This document shows, piece by piece, positions 55,407-64,000 of a stretch of 64,000 nucleotides of DNA. The notes below the pieces were generated by a model. It worked only from the letters and a program-made list of their open reading frames with translations. It made no database searches and was not told the DNA's origin. The translations under genes were made by a program, and so were the position numbers. Each line of letters starts with the position of its first letter. Position 1 is the first letter of the stretch. This DNA is from an uncultured Cohaesibacter sp. (GTDB taxonomy: Bacteria > Pseudomonadota > Alphaproteobacteria > Rhizobiales > Cohaesibacteraceae): contig NZ_OY781115.1 in assembly GCF_963676485.1 (NCBI RefSeq), positions 1 to 64,000 of the forward strand, in the 5' to 3' direction.

Positions 55407-56288
55407 ATGAGAAGAAACTGCCTTTCATTCCTCAGGACAGCCGGGCTAAGCCTCGCCTTATGTGCAACATTATCCGGCGTCGCAGCAGCTCAGGGGCTGA
55501 AAACGACCGTGTCGACATGGGAAAACAAGCTCGACGCACGCATAGGTGTAATCCTGCGCGATGGATCGTCAGACTGGGAAATCAGCCATCGTGCCGATGA
55601 ACGCTTTCCGATGGCCAGCACCTTCAAGACCCTGTTGTGTGGAGCGATCCTCAGGCGTGCTGATGCCGGGCAGGAAAATCTGACCGAGTTGGTATCCTAC
55701 AGCAAAAAGGATCTGGTCTCCTGGTCGCCCATAACGAAAAAGCATGTGAAGGACGGCATGCCCGTTTCCGATTTATGCGCAGCGGCGATCACCATGAGCG
55801 ACAATACTGCTGCTAACCTGTTGCTTTCGCGCGTTAAAGGGCCAGCTGGCCTGACTGACTTTTTACGGCAGATTGGCGACGAAACAACCCGTTTGGACAG
55901 ATGGGAACCAGAGTTGAATGAAGCCACGCCCTCCGATCCGAGAGACACAACAAGCCCGCGCGCGATAACCATATCGCTGAACAAACTTCTATTTGGCAGT
56001 GCCCTACAGCCTGCTTCTGCTGCGCATCTGAAACAATGGATGATTGATGACAAGGTCGCCGGCAAACTCATCCGCCCCCATGTGCCAAAGGGGTGGATCA
56101 TCGGAGACAAGACCGGAACCGCCGGTTATGGCACGCGAGGCATCGTTGCCGTCATCCAAACGCCAGAAGGACAGACCTATCTTGCGGCCATCTATATCAC
56201 GCAATCCAAGGCGGATCTGGAGCTGAGAAATCAAGTTATTTCAGACATAGGTCAGGCCATCATTTCCGAGATCAAACAGCGACGCTAG
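55407..56288 (+). CDS. bla: Class A beta-lactamase
   Basis: 293 residues with a signal peptide ending at VAAAQG (about residue 29). All class A motifs are intact: S71TFK74, S131DN133, E167PELNE172 and K235TG237, with an arginine in YGTRG at the Ambler 244 position. Two cysteines at 78 and 124 match the Ambler 77/123 disulfide of TEM/SHV enzymes. It should hydrolyse penicillins and perhaps early cephalosporins in the periplasm; spectrum cannot be predicted. It is divergent from the ampR-like gene, so it is probably inducible. Confidence 0.95.
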   Translation: MRRNCLSFLRTAGLSLALCATLSGVAAAQGLKTTVSTWENKLDARIGVILRDGSSDWEISHRADERFPMASTFKTLLCGAILRRADAGQENLTELVSYSKKDLVSWSPITKKHVKDGMPVSDLCAAAITMSDNTAANLLLSRVKGPAGLTDFLRQIGDETTRLDRWEPELNEATPSDPRDTTSPRAITISLNKLLFGSALQPASAAHLKQWMIDDKVAGKLIRPHVPKGWIIGDKTGTAGYGTRGIVAVIQTPEGQTYLAAIYITQSKADLELRNQVISDIGQAIISEIKQRR

Positions 56289-56793: not shown

Positions 56794-58083
56794 TTACGCC
56801 AGTTTCTGCTGTCCGATTGTTTTGCTAAGCAAGGCCTCGATCATGAAACGCGGAGAAAAACCGTCTTTCGCAACAAGCGATCTTAAATAGCCGCCCGGCG
56901 ATCGAATGCTATCACACCGTTCTAGCAACGCGGCAACGGTTACAGATGCGGTAACAAGTCCCAACCGCACCTTTGCTTCATGCCAAGCAGAGCTCGAAAT
57001 GGAAAGCATTTGACTGACATGATCTGCGGTTTCAATCAGATCTGTCCAACTGCGAATACGAAAGCGGCTGCAATGAGTGATCTTTGGGCAGGCTTCCAAT
57101 ATCGTTTGCAAATCAAAGTAATTGCCGTGAGATTGCTCGGTAAGGACAAACTTCTCCTGCAAAGCAGTCTTAGGGACTGTTTGAATTGCTGAAGACTTTT
57201 GTGGTTTGGTGCTTTGTGTTGCAATTTCCTGGCCGATGTGAATCTCGGTCCTTGATTGGATCTGGTCCTGAGCGGCTCCTTCTTCAGAGTCAAAATATTT
57301 ATCTTTATTTGAATCCTCTATGTGCCGTTCATTTTGAGCGGGGCTGCCGTTCACTTCTTTGGAAAAAATAAGCTCATTCAACAGCTTGCCCACATCCTGA
57401 GCGAGCGTATAGAGACTGGCGTGAAGCTCTTTGAGAGTCGCAAGGCAAAGGCGACGGTCGGTTCTCTGTTGTAGCGTGGCCAGTCTTTCCATGAGCGGAG
57501 ACCATTGGCCTGAGGGGCAGGTTATTGTGCCGTAGGACAGGCTCTTGGAGATATTGCGGCGCAGAATTGTGATGTCTTCCTTGAGGGTTTGTATCAGTCT
57601 TGCTTCTTGTCGCGTGGCTTCTGCCATTTGATGGAAGTCGGCAGCGCGTACGAGCAGAGGTTTGAGATCAAACCCGAAAGCACGCATGATGGTGCCTTCA
57701 TGGTCACGACGGGCATAGCGTTTGCCATTGGGGCTATCGCGACGGATGAGCAAACCGGCTTTGACAAGACTTGCCAAATGACGCCGCAATGTTGGTTCAG
57801 ACATGCCATAAGCGCGTGAGCGCAGTTTGTTGTTGGAGGGAAAAACAATCAGATTGTCGTGCCCGCACAGGACATCGTCCTTGTGAAAGGAGAGCAGGGC
57901 GCTGAGCACAGCAAGACTGCGGTCTGAAAGCTCAAGCATTTTACGGCAGTCTGTTATATCGCGCAGAATTTGCCATTTATCAGCTGTTAAATTTTGAGCA
58001 CAAGACACACTTATCCGTTGTCCATCTATCATCTCGACAGATAGATTACGGCCCCCAAAAGGGGTCGATAGAGTGATAGTCAT
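56794..58083 (-). CDS. repC: Replication initiator RepC of a repABC replicon
   Basis: 429 residues, the normal length. The N-terminal half resembles RepC: MLELSDRSLAVLSALLSFH, LCGHDNLIVFPSNNKLRSRAYG, MSEPTLRRHLASLVKAGLLIRRDSPNGKRYARR (winged HTH, about 95-130). The C-terminal part, PGGYLRSLVAKDGFS, is also typical. In repABC systems RepC starts replication from an origin inside its own gene; an AT-rich patch near 57285-57320 is a candidate. It is expressed after repB and limited by the ctRNA at 58165-58219. Confidence 0.95.
   Translation of the reverse strand: MTITLSTPFGGRNLSVEMIDGQRISVSCAQNLTADKWQILRDITDCRKMLELSDRSLAVLSALLSFHKDDVLCGHDNLIVFPSNNKLRSRAYGMSEPTLRRHLASLVKAGLLIRRDSPNGKRYARRDHEGTIMRAFGFDLKPLLVRAADFHQMAEATRQEARLIQTLKEDITILRRNISKSLSYGTITCPSGQWSPLMERLATLQQRTDRRLCLATLKELHASLYTLAQDVGKLLNELIFSKEVNGSPAQNERHIEDSNKDKYFDSEEGAAQDQIQSRTEIHIGQEIATQSTKPQKSSAIQTVPKTALQEKFVLTEQSHGNYFDLQTILEACPKITHCSRFRIRSWTDLIETADHVSQMLSISSSAWHEAKVRLGLVTASVTVAALLERCDSIRSPGGYLRSLVAKDGFSPRFMIEALLSKTIGQQKLA
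57976..57991. promoter_or_regulatory. parS-like centromere site 2 (within the repC 5' coding region)
   Basis: TTTATCAGCTGTTAAA differs by one base from the palindrome at 56769-56784 and fits GTTNNCNGCNGNNAAC except at the outer pair. It lies about 90 bases into repC. Two related sites 1.2 kb apart in one cassette support a partition function. Confidence 0.5.
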
Positions 58084-58164
58084 AACTTTTCATCAGGCAA
58101 AAGAAAATTGTTCGCTCGCGAGAACGTTATGTCTTGACAATTTGTTGGGAAGCTGATTCTGTAG

Positions 58165-58219
58165 GGTTGCTATACAATACAGGGCTTCCGGGTGGTTAAC
58201 GCTGCTTGGGAGCCTTTTT
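58165..58219 (+). ncRNA. Counter-transcribed RNA (ctRNA, incompatibility RNA) of repABC
   Basis: The repB-repC gap of repABC plasmids encodes a small antisense RNA opposite to the rep genes. Here, on the plus strand, a -35 TTGACA (58134-58139) is followed by a poor -10. A terminator then occurs: GGCTTCC (58183-58189) pairs with GGGAGCC (58208-58214) and is followed by TTTTT (58215-58219). The loop contains GGTGGTTAACG, typical of this element. The RNA should block repC translation and set copy number and incompatibility. The 5' end is estimated. Confidence 0.75.
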
Positions 58220-58255
58220 CTTTGCGCTATTCTCCTTTCTGTGTTTCATTCTTTG

Positions 58256-58276
58256 TTAACCATAACCCCTGGTTAA
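58256..58276. repeat. Inverted repeat between ctRNA and repB stop
   Basis: TTAACCA (58256-58262) and TGGTTAA (58270-58276) are perfect inverted repeats around seven bases. A further GTTAAC overlaps the repB stop at 58285-58290. It could form the leader structure of repC mRNA or end repAB transcription in part. Confidence 0.45.
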
Positions 58277-58286
58277 GATGGGGGAG

Positions 58287-59330
58287 TTAACTTTTTTTCT
58301 TATAGTCCTCATAGAGTGAGGCCAGTGAGCTTGCGACATGTTCGGCGAATCTGCTGTCGAGCAAAACAAGCTCCGATTTTCGCGCGCCTTTTTTGAATGA
58401 GCCCAATGTGACATCTCCGGCGAGAAGCGCGACAGGCTGTGTCGACTTGTCCGCCTTATCGTCTTCTTCCTTCTGCAAATGCGAAAATAAAAGCTGGAAG
58501 CGTTTGTCAGACGAGAGCTCATCGGTAAAAGCCTGCGATGTAATATAGCCATGGGCCCGCTGGCGGGCTCTATCGCTTTCCAGATGATCCGCCATTTTCA
58601 TCCAGCGCGGGCGTCCGATTTTCGGGGCAGGGCCAATGGCTCGAATAAGGGTGTCGGGCACGGCTGCATGGACACGCTTTAGATATGAGGCTTCCGCATC
58701 GGTAATGGATAGGGCCAGCTTGACACGGGCTACTTCCTCTTTGGGGTCCGTGCACAGGGCGCGGACATGCGCGGCGAAGAGGACGCGCTCGATAAAGCTG
58801 AGATCCTGTCGATCACTATTCTCGATGCCTTGCGCTTGCACCAACTCGGCATCGGATAAGGCTTGCACCACCGCGCGGACCTTTTTGCCGGCAAGGCCTG
58901 AAATGGCCTTGAGACGGCGGTGTCCATACGCGACCTGGTAGCGCCCTTCCTCATCAGGGTGCGGGCGCACAAGGATCGGGATTTCCTGTCCTCTTTCCTC
59001 AATGGATTGGCGCAGCGAGAGAATTGCTTCTTCACTGGCGGCGTCCGAAAGACGATCAGGGAAAGGGGAGGGGTCTACTTGGTTCGGATCAAGCTCGACA
59101 ACATCAGAGGCCGGTTTTTCAGCAAGCTGTGTCTTGAGCCTGTCGCGCTCTTGGCGTAATTCCGCAATCACGGTCTCCTTGGTGGCAGCGACCACGCCCG
59201 AGCCAACCCTTTGATTGTGCGGCTGTGAAGAGGTTTTTTGCTCCTCTCCGGCTTGTGTTTTGCTGGTCTCGGCAATCGAGTTGACCAGCGCACCGAACAT
59301 CTGGGTTCGGGATGTCTTTTTCGCCGTCAT
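58287..59330 (-). CDS. repB: Plasmid partitioning protein RepB (ParB family)
   Basis: 347 residues from ATG 59330; the TTG at 59342 that extends the frame is not needed. Start MTAKKTSRTQMFGALVNSI is the RepB pattern. The ParB/Spo0J nuclease-like domain is at about 75-170 (DPSPFPDRL, then QSIEERGQEIPILVRPHPDE, YQVAYGHRRLKAI), and the HTH follows with LSITDAEASYLKRVHAAVPDTLI. RepB binds parS and cooperates with RepA. Its ATG overlaps the repA stop (ATGA). Confidence 0.95.
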   Translation of the reverse strand: MTAKKTSRTQMFGALVNSIAETSKTQAGEEQKTSSQPHNQRVGSGVVAATKETVIAELRQERDRLKTQLAEKPASDVVELDPNQVDPSPFPDRLSDAASEEAILSLRQSIEERGQEIPILVRPHPDEEGRYQVAYGHRRLKAISGLAGKKVRAVVQALSDAELVQAQGIENSDRQDLSFIERVLFAAHVRALCTDPKEEVARVKLALSITDAEASYLKRVHAAVPDTLIRAIGPAPKIGRPRWMKMADHLESDRARQRAHGYITSQAFTDELSSDKRFQLLFSHLQKEEDDKADKSTQPVALLAGDVTLGSFKKGARKSELVLLDSRFAEHVASSLASLYEDYKKKS

Positions 59331-60529
59331 GAGCGCCCCCAACTGGCTTGAATCAGAGACAGAATTTCATGATTGACCGAGTCCATGCTTTCCATTGCAC
59401 GCCGATAGGTATCTCGTCCCATGGAATTGGTCTCGATTTCATAAAGGCTGCGCTTGTCGAGCCCGGCATTGGCAACCGCCGTGGTTTCAAACACGGAATT
59501 GGTCAATACCGCATCCCCCAGCAGCATACGCAACAGGCCGACAACCTGTTGCTGGGGGGCATCATTTGGATTGTGGCGCGTGATCAGGAAGCGCATGAAA
59601 TTCATGTCCATGCTGCCGCCAGCCTCTTCAATGACATTCATGATGTCACTCATCATCAGCAAAAACTGGTTCATTGAGGCCACATCAAGCATGGAGGGAT
59701 GCACGGTGATCATCAGGCCGGTCGAAGCAAAAAGCGCCCCTAGTGTGAGATAGCCAAGCTGGGGCGGTGTGTCGAATATAACGATGTCATACTCTTCGGA
59801 CACTTGCTCAAGGCATGCGGATATGCGGCGGAAAAACACGCCATCCCCTTTGGATTGGCCCGAAACGATGGCTTGCGGCGTTGCATGCTCGAATTCCATC
59901 AGCTCCAGATTCCCCGGAACCAGATCCAGGCCGTCAAAATAGGTCTTGCGGATCACATCGCGCAAAGGCCGTTGTTCTTCATCATAGCGGATCGCTGCCC
60001 AGAGGGTTTCGTTCGGCCCCACATCGAGCTCGGGTTGGGCGCCGAACATGGCGCTCATGGAAGCCTGCGGATCAAGGTCAATCGCCAACACCCGATAGCC
60101 TTGCAAGGCCAGAAAATGGGATAGATGCACCGAGGTGGTCGTCTTGGCTGATCCACCCTTGAAATTGGCAACAGACAGCACCTGAAGGCCTTCGCCTTGC
60201 TGCCGATTTGGGAGGAATTTCAAATGCTCATTGGGGCGTTTGTGGGCCAGATATTCGCGGAGCGCATTGATTTCCTGCAAGGAATAAATCCGTCGCCCGT
60301 TGGAAAGGCGCTCGGGGTCCGGGCCTTCACCATCCAGCGACATTTGCCGAATGGTGCTTTCAGCGATGGAAAGCAGACGTGCCGCTTCCGGAGCGGAAAA
60401 TTTGCGCAATGATTTCTGCGCGTGCGGCGGATACATCCGCTCACGCAATGCGCTCAATTGTGACGACAACAGCGAGGCAAATTGGCCAACCTGTTCAGAG
60501 GGGCTCGAAAGAGGGGCCTGATCGCTCAC
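59327..60529 (-). CDS. repA: Plasmid partitioning ATPase RepA (ParA family)
   Basis: 400 residues. An N-terminal HTH-like region (KFSAPEAARLLSIAESTIRQ, then RLSNGRRIYSLQEINALREYL) precedes the ParA ATPase domain. The deviant Walker A is FKGGSAKTTT (about residues 120-129), the A' motif IDLDPQASM and the Walker B IVIFDTPPQLG. RepA partitions the replicon and represses the repABC promoter. Direct repeats lie just upstream of its start. It is the first gene of the cassette. Confidence 0.96.
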   Translation of the reverse strand: MSDQAPLSSPSEQVGQFASLLSSQLSALRERMYPPHAQKSLRKFSAPEAARLLSIAESTIRQMSLDGEGPDPERLSNGRRIYSLQEINALREYLAHKRPNEHLKFLPNRQQGEGLQVLSVANFKGGSAKTTTSVHLSHFLALQGYRVLAIDLDPQASMSAMFGAQPELDVGPNETLWAAIRYDEEQRPLRDVIRKTYFDGLDLVPGNLELMEFEHATPQAIVSGQSKGDGVFFRRISACLEQVSEEYDIVIFDTPPQLGYLTLGALFASTGLMITVHPSMLDVASMNQFLLMMSDIMNVIEEAGGSMDMNFMRFLITRHNPNDAPQQQVVGLLRMLLGDAVLTNSVFETTAVANAGLDKRSLYEIETNSMGRDTYRRAMESMDSVNHEILSLIQASWGRS

Positions 60530-61240: not shown

Positions 61241-61756
61241 CTAAGGTTTCCGCTTCATCCAGGCTGCATAGTCCGGGTTCTGATGGCTCATATCGTCATA
61301 AAGCCACACCATCCGGTCGAGAAACCAGAGCTTTGTGAGCATGATCGTGATGGTGCCAAAGACCGTCGCCCAGACGTCCAGCCAGATGAGACCATACAGA
61401 TAGGGCAAGGCCGCCAGTCCGGACAGTCCATTGAGAATGAAGCCAGCCCGAATGTGGTGGCGCGGTATGGGGCATTCTTGCCGGTTCAGCCAGACGCGTT
61501 CTCCGAACACGCCTTTGGTCATCCAGTTGTCTGTATCCTCGGGCGCAGGGAAAAGGCGTGGGTTGATCCAGAGCCACAGAAGCGCAAGCACAAGGGGCAC
61601 GGCAGCCCAGACACCGATATAGATGCGGCTCCATACGGCAAGCGCGATCAGGGGGAGAGATGCAACCCGGCTCCAACCACTCCATTTGTTGGCGTGACGC
61701 TCCCAGACCTCCGGTGACATCCCCATCAGCTTTTCAGACAGTTCGGCGATTTTCAT
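61241..61756 (-). CDS. Membrane protein resembling DUF6653
   Basis: 171 residues. Start SEKLMGMSPEVWERHANKWSGWSR is the pattern of a conserved family (recalled as DUF6653) with three or four membrane segments: residues about 33-62, 100-128 and 130-146. A conserved WLNRQECPIPRHHIRAGF loop lies between. No function is known. A GGCGG-type purine stretch is not obvious, but the ATG at 61756 is the natural start. It stands alone between the WGR and unknown genes. Confidence 0.6.
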   Translation of the reverse strand: MKIAELSEKLMGMSPEVWERHANKWSGWSRVASLPLIALAVWSRIYIGVWAAVPLVLALLWLWINPRLFPAPEDTDNWMTKGVFGERVWLNRQECPIPRHHIRAGFILNGLSGLAALPYLYGLIWLDVWATVFGTITIMLTKLWFLDRMVWLYDDMSHQNPDYAAWMKRKP

Positions 61757-61913: not shown

Positions 61914-62789
61914 TTAGATGTGATAGCCATAGCGCTGCAATATGTCGGCAACGGTGCCTTTTTCGATATAGCCTCTTTGAACTTCATTCATGACATCTTG
62001 CACGCTGCTTTCCGCACTCTTCATTGTGTCATATTTCGCATCATCCGGCGTCAGCATGATGTAGGATTCGTCCGTGTGGCTGTAGACCAGCTTTACATCC
62101 TGCCCATATTCAGCGCGCAGTTGACGTTCTGCATCGACTGCGTTCATCAAGGTTTCCAACCGCACCCTGCGATCTGCCTTGATGGCAGCGTCAGAATTGC
62201 TCTTCTCGATCGGGTTCCCATTGGACCAAACACCGTTGCTGTGAAAGAAATCCTCGTTCATATAGGCGGATGTGGCGCCATCTGGCAGAGCGCCCAGAGC
62301 TTTTGATGCAATCTCGACCATGCCTCCCTGCATGTCTATTTTGATCATGCTGTTCCCGGATTGAGAGCCTTGTTGCGTCTGCGCGCCGCCCCCATTTTCT
62401 GCCTGATCTGCTATGGCAGCAAAGGTGGACATCATGGCTTTGGTGTCGGCCGCCGAGAGCGTTTGGATGAGTGACACACCATCGCGCGCATCAATGCTGT
62501 GCCCTGAGGTGATAATCGATAATCCATTGATATTAATAGACTTGGTGGACGCTTCGCGCGCTGCGTCTTCTTGCAAGGCCAGCAGAGACGATTGGGTTTC
62601 AGCCGTTACCGGCGCAGTTTTGTAAGCGCCTTGCGTAGGCCGTGAGGAGGCGGTTTCCTTTGCCTGTGGCCCGGCAAAGGGTTTCGAAGTGTCTTCTGAT
62701 CTAGACGAGGCCCCGCTTTCAAAATTGATGGGGAATTTCGTTGGTATCGTGCCAAGAATCGGAAGTTGCATCATCGCCCTCTCGTTCAT
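61914..62789 (-). CDS. Protein of unknown function
   Basis: 291 residues, no signal peptide or membrane helix. The first 75 residues are low in order (Ser/Thr/Pro-rich). The middle has NINGLSIITSGHSIDARDGVSL and ADTKAMMSTFAAIADQAENG followed by a Gln/Gly-rich linker. The C-terminal third is helical with AIKADRRVRLETLMNAVDAERQLRAEYGQDVKLVYSHTDESYIMLTPDDAKYDTM. I do not recognise the family. A later start at MQLPILGT (codon 7) is possible. It is divergent from the MarR-GH13 gene, so the 62790-62931 region serves both. Confidence 0.65.
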   Translation of the reverse strand: MNERAMMQLPILGTIPTKFPINFESGASSRSEDTSKPFAGPQAKETASSRPTQGAYKTAPVTAETQSSLLALQEDAAREASTKSININGLSIITSGHSIDARDGVSLIQTLSAADTKAMMSTFAAIADQAENGGGAQTQQGSQSGNSMIKIDMQGGMVEIASKALGALPDGATSAYMNEDFFHSNGVWSNGNPIEKSNSDAAIKADRRVRLETLMNAVDAERQLRAEYGQDVKLVYSHTDESYIMLTPDDAKYDTMKSAESSVQDVMNEVQRGYIEKGTVADILQRYGYHI

Positions 62790-62895
62790 GTTCCAGAAAA
62801 ATTAATGCAAGAGATGTGCCATAATCTTTGTCATATTTCAGATTGCATCATGCCTATTGGCGGGCATGCGCCTATGCGGAAACAGAGCGCTGATC

Positions 62896-62931
62896 TTGAT
62901 TTTTGTAAATTAATACGCTATGCGTATCATT
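62896..62931 (+). promoter_or_regulatory. Promoter and palindromic MarR-type operator of the fusion gene
   Basis: ATACGC (62913-62918) and GCGTAT (62922-62927) form a perfect 6-3-6 inverted repeat. TTGATT (62896-62901) and TATGCG (62919-62924) are 17 bases apart and could be -35 and -10, so the operator covers the -10. Transcription would then start about 62931, right at the ATG at 62932, which has no ribosome-binding site: a possible leaderless mRNA. Confidence 0.5.
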
Positions 62932-64000
62932 ATGGCAAGATATGCAAGACATGATGTCGCCGCTCTGCTGAAGGCTGTGCTGGCGTTCGGGCGTCGACTG
63001 CGCTCGGAGCGCACATCGACGCGCGTCACATCCTCTGCTGCGAGCATGCTCAACACGCTCTATGTGCAAGGGCCAATGTCCGCCCGGCAGCTCGCAAGCG
63101 AGGAGCGACTACAGCCCCAATCGCTGACGCGGATCGTCAAGCGGCTGGAGGAAGATGGCCTGATCCGGCGCGACCGCAGTCAAGAAGATCAACGCGAGCT
63201 GATCATTGCGTTGACCCAAACAGGCACAAGAGAGCTCGATGCCGACCTCTTGGAGCGACAGAGATGGTTGGAGCAGGTTGTCGCGGACGCCCTGAGCGAA
63301 GAGGACCGGGCTTTGTTGGGAGACGTCGCACGCCTTCTGCTCAAGCTCGCCTTTCATGATACTGAGGCCAAAACACAGGAAACAGATATGCCGAGCTGGG
63401 TTCAATATGCGATTTTCTGGCAACTATATCCTTTAGGATTTGTTGGTGCACCTAAAAGCATCGACAGGATCAAAGGCATTGATCATCGTTTCGATCATAT
63501 CATCGACTGGCTTGATTATGCCGTTGAACTGGGCGTTTCCGCGCTGCTACTCGGGCCGATCTTCGCATCATCCACGCACGGATATGACACGATTGATCAC
63601 TATCGCATCGACCCGCGCCTTGGTGATGAGGCGGATTTCGACCGGCTGATGGCCGCAGCCAATCAGCGTGGTCTGAAGATCATTCTCGATGGGGTCTTCA
63701 ATCATGTCGGGCGCGATTTCCCCAAATTCATCGAAGCCGACGCTGAAGGGGCCGGGTCAGAAGCGGCACACTGGTTCCTTCCCGTTGACAGCAATGGCTC
63801 CAATAGCACGGCGGCATGGGAGACCTTTGAGGGGCACCCCAGTCTGATCACACTCAATCATGAGAATCCGGATGTGGCGGACTATGTTCTCGATGTCATG
63901 ACCCATTGGATGGATCGTGGGGTATCCGGTTGGCGCCTTGATGCGGCCTATGCGACGCCGACGTCCTTTTGGGCGCAAATTCTGCCCACGGTGCGTCAAG
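62932..64000 (+). CDS. MarR regulator joined in frame to GH13 alpha-amylase-family enzyme (3' truncated by window edge)
   Basis: The frame is open from 62932 to the end of the window without a stop (356 codons read). Residues about 1-143 are a MarR regulator: AASMLNTLYVQGPMSARQLA, then LQPQSLTRIVKRLEEDGLIRRDRSQEDQREL (recognition helix and wing). After a short linker (HDTEAKTQETD), residue 153 begins MPSWVQYAIFWQLYPLGFVG, the usual N-terminus of a GH13 family, with HGYDTIDHYRIDPRLG, region I DGVFNHVG (D253) and region II GWRLDAA with nucleophile D337. ATG 63388 (codon 153) is preceded by AGGAAAC, so the enzyme may also be started separately. Alternative start of the whole: ATG 62920. Confidence 0.82.
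   Translation, partial: MARYARHDVAALLKAVLAFGRRLRSERTSTRVTSSAASMLNTLYVQGPMSARQLASEERLQPQSLTRIVKRLEEDGLIRRDRSQEDQRELIIALTQTGTRELDADLLERQRWLEQVVADALSEEDRALLGDVARLLLKLAFHDTEAKTQETDMPSWVQYAIFWQLYPLGFVGAPKSIDRIKGIDHRFDHIIDWLDYAVELGVSALLLGPIFASSTHGYDTIDHYRIDPRLGDEADFDRLMAAANQRGLKIILDGVFNHVGRDFPKFIEADAEGAGSEAAHWFLPVDSNGSNSTAAWETFEGHPSLITLNHENPDVADYVLDVMTHWMDRGVSGWRLDAAYATPTSFWAQILPTVRQ

Follow-up and report, generated by a model that had tools for sequence, protein, structure and literature searches.

A MarR-type regulator and a GH13 sugar enzyme encoded by one gene, with a conserved candidate operator before its start codon

The fused gene and its two domains

The right end of the window (the whole stretch of 64,000 nucleotides that was analysed) carries a single gene whose one protein looks like a DNA-binding repressor joined to a starch-type sugar enzyme. 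Its parts are as follows.

62932..64000, plus strand: in-window part of the marR-GH13 fused gene, which ends beyond the window
62932..63360, plus strand: MarR winged-helix domain, residues 1-143
63361..63387, plus strand: linker, residues 144-152, differing between genera (dN/dS and pLDDT in the text)
63377..63383, plus strand: AGGAAAC, a ribosome-site-like sequence 5' of the internal Met153
63388..64000, plus strand: GH13 alpha-amylase-type catalytic domain from Met153 (residues 153-591), continuing to 64704 outside the window

The initial annotation had read a fusion in one open frame as far as position 64000. This was borne out when the frame was traced further, to the stop codon TGA at 64705-64707, just outside the window, giving a full-length product of 591 residues in which MarR is followed by a short linker and a complete GH13 domain. 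The upstream ATG at 62920 was rejected as a start because another genome of the same genus (G013) has AAG at that place.

The first half matches PF01047 (MarR) with 54.1 bits against a curated threshold of 24.6, and has the whole MarR fold with its N- and C-terminal helices. The scores of the named MarR equivalogs were not attained (for the Rv0880 family, 74 of 220 bits). In the structure model of the full-length protein, 333 of 591 residues had a pLDDT of at least 90, nearly all of them within the GH13 part, while the MarR half lay mostly below 50 and was therefore modelled separately. Alone it was modelled as a complete fold, with pLDDT below 50 for residues 147-152.

The second half matches PF00128, the alpha-amylase catalytic domain, with 167.8 bits against a curated 22, as do all 34 aligned members, and it also matches PF11941. 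The catalytic Asp, Glu and Asp of regions II, III and IV are D337, E366 and D429, invariant in all 34 rows. One chain thus combines a whole MarR protein, as the initial annotation had read, with a GH13 enzyme that is also complete and has an intact catalytic triad.

Among known structures, the top relatives by sequence profile are maltogenic amylase, neopullulanase and cyclomaltodextrinase, and by fold the cyclic maltosyl-maltose hydrolase ties with these three. The catalytic fold is alike in all of them, with 26-30% identity in the fold alignments. GH13 subfamily 20 (neopullulanase/cyclomaltodextrinase) is characterised by an N-terminal CBM34-type domain and by MPKLN in region V. However, where the neopullulanase group has its N-terminal carbohydrate-binding domain, the fused protein has MarR; the Pfam scan found no CBM34-type domain, and the region reads LITLN instead of the MPKLN of neopullulanases, so that the features of this subfamily were not found. 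The match to the cyclic maltosyl-maltose hydrolase likewise begins near that enzyme's own N-terminus. The next GH13 match in the window's own genome has only 36% identity over 184 residues, and therefore no free copy of the enzyme was seen.

Our best guess for the substrate, drawn from the fold, is a small intracellular alpha-gluco-oligosaccharide. When the neighbours of 84 loci were clustered, sugar-transport or starch genes were not prominent in the 25 largest clusters, nor did reading the neighbours by eye at 8 loci bring up any. As no such operon is a common neighbour, the substrate is a guess from the fold.

Distribution and origin of the fusion

In the genus of the window the gene was present in 4 of 18 genomes and fused in every case: in the window's own genome (G000) and in G006, G013 and G004, whose copies have 86%, 84% and 77% identity to that of the window. 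In a scan of relatives the best 80 of 107 were kept, and the counts of fused genes are therefore lower bounds. Four of these 80 were fused (three from Pleomorphomonas and one from an Ahrensia MAG), which gives eight fused genomes in all, four of them from the window's genus. Six others among the best 80 had a separate MarR gene directly upstream in another frame, namely Neorhizobium galegae, a Rhizobiales isolate, two Rhizobium tropici, Actinomadura and Nakamurella. The marR gene overlaps the enzyme gene in five of the six pairs, and in Nakamurella the two lie about 34 bases apart. In Kribbella (n=4) the upstream MarR gene is on the opposite strand. The initial annotation would have given up the fusion if all relatives had the two parts split. 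This is not so: eight genomes are fused, and six others have the parts as separate neighbouring genes.

An annotation or sequencing artefact that welded two genes together could be imagined, as two overlapping genes do exist in close relatives. We reject it as extremely improbable, for the open frame is common to seven other genomes at 71-86% identity, three of them single-contig assemblies, and a fusion found in eight genomes is no sequencing error.

The 84 loci examined consist of the best 80 of 107 relatives and the four of the window's genus. A MarR-like frame was present in the fetched flanks of 23 of them and absent from those of 61, so the enzyme can do without this regulator. Wider searches for the fusion were made at E 1e-60. 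Among 396 actinobacterial genomes, 32 with the enzyme, no match extended into the MarR half; a MarR-like frame lay nearby in 3 of 30 actinobacterial enzyme loci, Actinomadura again among them. The family group of Neorhizobium had the enzyme in 5 of 394 genomes, including the Ahrensia fusion already counted, and two of its enzyme carriers had no MarR within 1.5-kb flanks. At the class level the enzyme was found in 1 of 385 genomes, the window itself, and at the order level in 13 of 397, seven of them fused; here G235, G270 and G326 were taken from their frame lengths to be L009, L007 and L008 and were counted once. The plasmid search matched 878 records, only two with a cover of at least 80%, the best being R. 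tropici CIAT 899 (97%; an unannotated record).

The contigs that carry the fused gene measure 4.6-5.2 Mb in G004, G006 and G013 but 208.8 kb in the window's genome, where the contig has repABC-type genes and is a repABC-type replicon. Genes like repA, repB and repC (ParA-type AAA_31, RepB/ParB_N and RP-C) occupy 56794-60529 on the minus strand of the window. Close to these replication genes, at 55407-56288 on the plus strand, is a gene of the beta-lactamase family (PF13354, Beta-lactamase2, 159 bits).

Both halves are under purifying selection. Compared with the window copy, dN/dS was 0.04-0.14 for MarR in all five comparisons and 0.07-0.13 for GH13 in three of five, being saturated against G004 and L007. 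The nine codons of the linker gave 0.23-0.63 in the four of five comparisons that were computable.

In a tree of 89 GH13 rows (a quick tree with a midpoint root) the eight fused rows formed one clade with an SH-aLRT of 100. This clade adjoins four rhizobial operons at a joint node of 88, which was not starred. A first alignment with separate MarR rows, which had only 16-24% identity, was replaced by a second one. In the rhizobial sister clade (Rhizobium/Neorhizobium) these two proteins are encoded by separate genes that overlap. More widely, the two-gene marR-GH13 operons of Rhizobium, Neorhizobium, the Rhizobiales isolate, Actinomadura and Nakamurella encode related proteins in the same order and have a stop codon and a change of frame at the joint, neither of which is found in the fused gene. 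In L011 and L023 the two genes overlap by ATGA. Since the fused rows form a single clade beside the rhizobial operons, one fusion event is enough. We infer that the change went from two genes to a fused one, and that the two-gene operon probably became fused once. The simplest path would be a change of frame in an overlapping marR-GH13 operon by which the stop codon at the joint was lost, most likely a single time.

The initial annotation had proposed that one message might yield both the fusion and a free enzyme, and this is weakly supported: Met153 is kept in all eight fused genes. The ribosome site before it is modest, with a duplex energy of -4.3 kcal/mol in three copies including that of the window and -5.4 to -8.7 in four; G004 alone has a strong one (-10.3). 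Sites at least equal to that of the window copy precede 133 of its 582 codons. Among the internal Met codons that of Met153 ranks best in five of eight copies and second in three. At the first start such a site is absent or nearly so (+1.7 in seven copies, -0.5 in G013), and in the rhizobial operons the separate enzyme gene starts at the codon corresponding to Met153. It is conceivable that the gene yields a full-length fusion that acts as repressor together with a separate GH13 enzyme begun at Met153, with the conserved codon, its ribosome-like site of -4.3 to -10.3 kcal/mol and the enzyme start of the split operons in favour of this. Yet so many equally strong sites, and a conservation of Met153 that may be mere inheritance, leave us somewhat doubtful of it. 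The AGGAAAC site may be a relic, or an active remnant, of the two-gene operon.

Candidate operator, promoter and divergent neighbour

Upstream of the fused gene are the following features.

61914..62789, minus strand: divergent gene, a conserved neighbour that clusters in 7 of 8 fused loci
62807..62821, minus strand: TGGCAC-N5-TTGC, a sigma-54-type promoter-like site 5' of the divergent gene
62896..62900, plus strand: TTGAT, candidate -35 element at a fixed distance, invariant in 8 of 8 fused loci
62914..62926, no strand assigned: palindrome TACGC-TAT-GCGTA (TACGCTATGCGTA), candidate operator overlapping the predicted -10 element (invariance and genome counts in the text)
62919..62924, plus strand: TATGCG, candidate -10 element with a 17-base spacing from TTGAT

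The palindrome stands directly 5' of the start codon in all eight fused genes and in the four rhizobial operons, with one base altered in a single fused copy, that of G013 (TACGCTAAGCGTA). Across the eight fused loci it is invariant at 12 of 13 positions, compared with 8 of 60 positions upstream, and when the four rhizobial operons are included the figures become 12 of 13 and 2 of 60. The exact 13-mer is present in 11 of the 12 carrier genomes (the exception being G013) and is single-copy in ten of them, each copy at the marR-GH13 locus. G270 has three exact 13-mers, of which both extra copies are within long frames and are probably due to chance, or else represent further targets. None was found in nine genomes of the same genus without the gene; these are part of 14 known non-carriers, G005, G009, G011, G015 and G017 being outside this search. 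A reversed-pattern control gave six matches in 21 genomes (one in G000, one in G004, two in G001 and two in G007), and therefore a lone 13-mer in a genome may be chance. Chance does not account for the fact that in 11 of 12 genomes the 13-mer lies at the marR-GH13 gene.

A search with the looser pattern TACGCNNNGCGTA gave no match in the fetched GH13-only loci or in the two actinobacterial operons (Actinomadura and Nakamurella). Inspection by eye of these two operons (L023 and L025) revealed a common sequence like TACGTG-N-TAGC-N-TACTA right 5' of the marR start, at about 6.0 kb, which is perhaps a related operator. With at most one mismatch, the window's own genome has four sites against four in the reversed control, so there is no excess beyond the marR-GH13 site; the other matches were taken as probably due to chance rather than as a wider regulon. 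One such sequence, TACGCCATGCGTA (L108 1501-1513; G000:C1:882739-882751), precedes by about 45 bases a frame that by eye resembles a MATE-like transporter. This site at C1:882739 may be another target of the fused protein or may be due to chance.

The TTGAT element makes up five of the eight upstream positions that are invariant in the fused set and is absent from the four rhizobial operons. The transcript would begin near ATG 62932. No ribosome site was found before this ATG, and the message is thus likely to be leaderless. The palindrome before the start had been suggested earlier as an operator, and its conservation at 12 loci makes this likely. There is good comparative evidence that this MarR would act mainly on its own promoter.

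The divergent gene matched no Pfam family above the cut-off. As in its relatives, translation probably begins at an internal ATG, that at 62771 (MQLPILG). It adjoins the fused gene in all four carriers of the window's genus; in the 14 non-carriers of the same genus a close homologue was found in two and a distant one in one. The site 5' of it agrees with the sigma-54 consensus, and was exact in five of the seven loci with the divergent gene and had one mismatch in the other two; such matches also occur elsewhere in the loci, for example an exact one in L006 at 13286. Distant homologues of the divergent gene in the window's own genome (L130) and in G002 (L129) have an exact site too.

The conserved neighbourhood, with this gene beside the fused gene in 7 of 8 loci and directly adjacent in 4 of 4 of the genus, raises the question of whether the regulator acts on it also or instead, through shared intergenic control such as that of PutA at putA/putP. 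We consider this distinctly unlikely: a sigma-54-type site belonging to the gene itself lies 93 bases away from the palindrome; G007 and G008 have a close homologue with such a site, without the fused gene or the exact 13-mer; and beside the Ahrensia copy and the rhizobial operons the gene is not in the neighbour cluster, though the palindrome is kept there.

Next to the divergent gene the window has a DUF6653 gene (61241-61756, minus strand), and in G013 and G004 (L112 and L113) the divergent gene, by eye, also has a similar gene at its side, so that these genes may have remained linked on the plasmid as a small block. A chemoreceptor-like neighbour cluster is common to four loci (L006-L009).

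Proposed regulation and comparison with known systems

The reading that we prefer, and hold to be quite probable, is that the gene encodes an autorepressed enzyme, whose MarR half acts at its own palindrome, whose GH13 half acts on gluco-oligosaccharides, and whose repression is lifted by a ligand. Since a conserved candidate site lies at its own promoter, the enzyme is likely to shut down expression of the gene that encodes it. The MarR half, as a dimer, would bind TACGCTATGCGTA, which overlaps the promoter, and block its own transcription, and the GH13 half would be a cytoplasmic enzyme that hydrolyses or transfers gluco-oligosaccharides with alpha-1,4/1,6 linkages. Release of the DNA would then be brought about by a metabolite connected with the enzyme (substrate, product or a ligand of the MarR pocket), so that the enzyme is made only when needed. 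The enzyme would build up until the ligand, the cognate sugar or a related one, is consumed, and its synthesis would otherwise be kept low. As repressor and enzyme are one molecule, the amount of enzyme would set the amount of repressor. DNA binding, repression, dimerisation and enzyme activity are here predictions. The regulator could instead be an activator, or could respond to a ligand that is not a sugar.

Autorepression does not by itself require that the halves communicate. We see about an even chance that they do not: MarR would sense a small ligand of its own, the enzyme would merely be co-produced, and the fusion would lock the two at 1:1, all of which is compatible with autorepression. 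A short and fast-evolving linker, a MarR half that models as a complete fold alone, and unfused rhizobial operons that share the operator and the gene order fit this well. On the other hand, the fusion has been kept with its frame intact in eight genomes of three genera, which suggests a benefit or no cost. Because operator and gene order are the same in the unfused operons, the regulation probably predates the fusion, as is also suggested by the less constrained linker and by the existence of an unfused form in the sister clade. The initial annotation had raised the enzyme half as a putative sensor, with maltodextrins or sucrose as candidate ligands. A more demanding version of the autorepressed enzyme, in which the GH13 active site is the sensor and occupancy by substrate makes the attached MarR dimer bind DNA less tightly, appears unlikely to us; if true, a hydrolase would report the occupancy by its own substrate to its own promoter, a complete feedback loop in one protein.

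At this locus nature may provide a feedback circuit made of one gene, for which a candidate operator has been mapped, an unfused relative is at hand for comparison and one target is likely, which makes the question of coupling versus fixed stoichiometry testable. The question is a general one: Does the joining of a repressor to an enzyme add allosteric coupling, or does it fix stoichiometry only? Such a gene could also be a ready part for sugar-responsive switches.

The initial annotation did not know this architecture as described, and among the open-access matches listed none describes a MarR-GH13 protein by title or abstract start, subscription papers being mostly outside this scope. MarR-GNAT fusions exist, and no description of them was found by title or abstract start in the literature searched. 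With PutA, BirA and MocR/GabR already known, the fusion of an enzyme to a DNA-binding domain as such is not new; GH13 as the partner appears to be.

Trigger enzymes that gained a DNA-binding domain are an established class, and the present protein, with MarR and GH13 in one chain, likewise has an enzyme and a DNA-binding domain together. The MocR regulators consist of a winged helix and a domain of the aminotransferase type (PMC6677901) and thus resemble our protein in having a winged helix and a complete enzyme fold in one chain. However, their helix is of the GntR subfamily, whereas the domains found here are MarR and a GH13 with its catalytic residues retained, so that the protein is not of the MocR/GabR type. 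Group II biotin protein ligases (BirA) are similar in carrying an N-terminal DNA-binding domain on an enzyme, and they also repress genes of their own pathway. In contrast, BirA belongs to another enzyme family and controls the biotin genes, while here the one conserved candidate site is the gene's own promoter.

PutA of E. coli, a trigger enzyme and autorepressor, also has a catabolic enzyme and a DNA-binding domain in one chain; its binding is confined to the intergenic spacer that separates putA from the divergent putP (PMC8249747). PutA, which is known to be switched by proline and by association with the membrane, is a proline dehydrogenase/P5C dehydrogenase, whereas the enzyme here is of the GH13 family. 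Our best reading of the fused protein is that of a dedicated autorepressor joined to the sole enzyme under its control, comparable to PutA.
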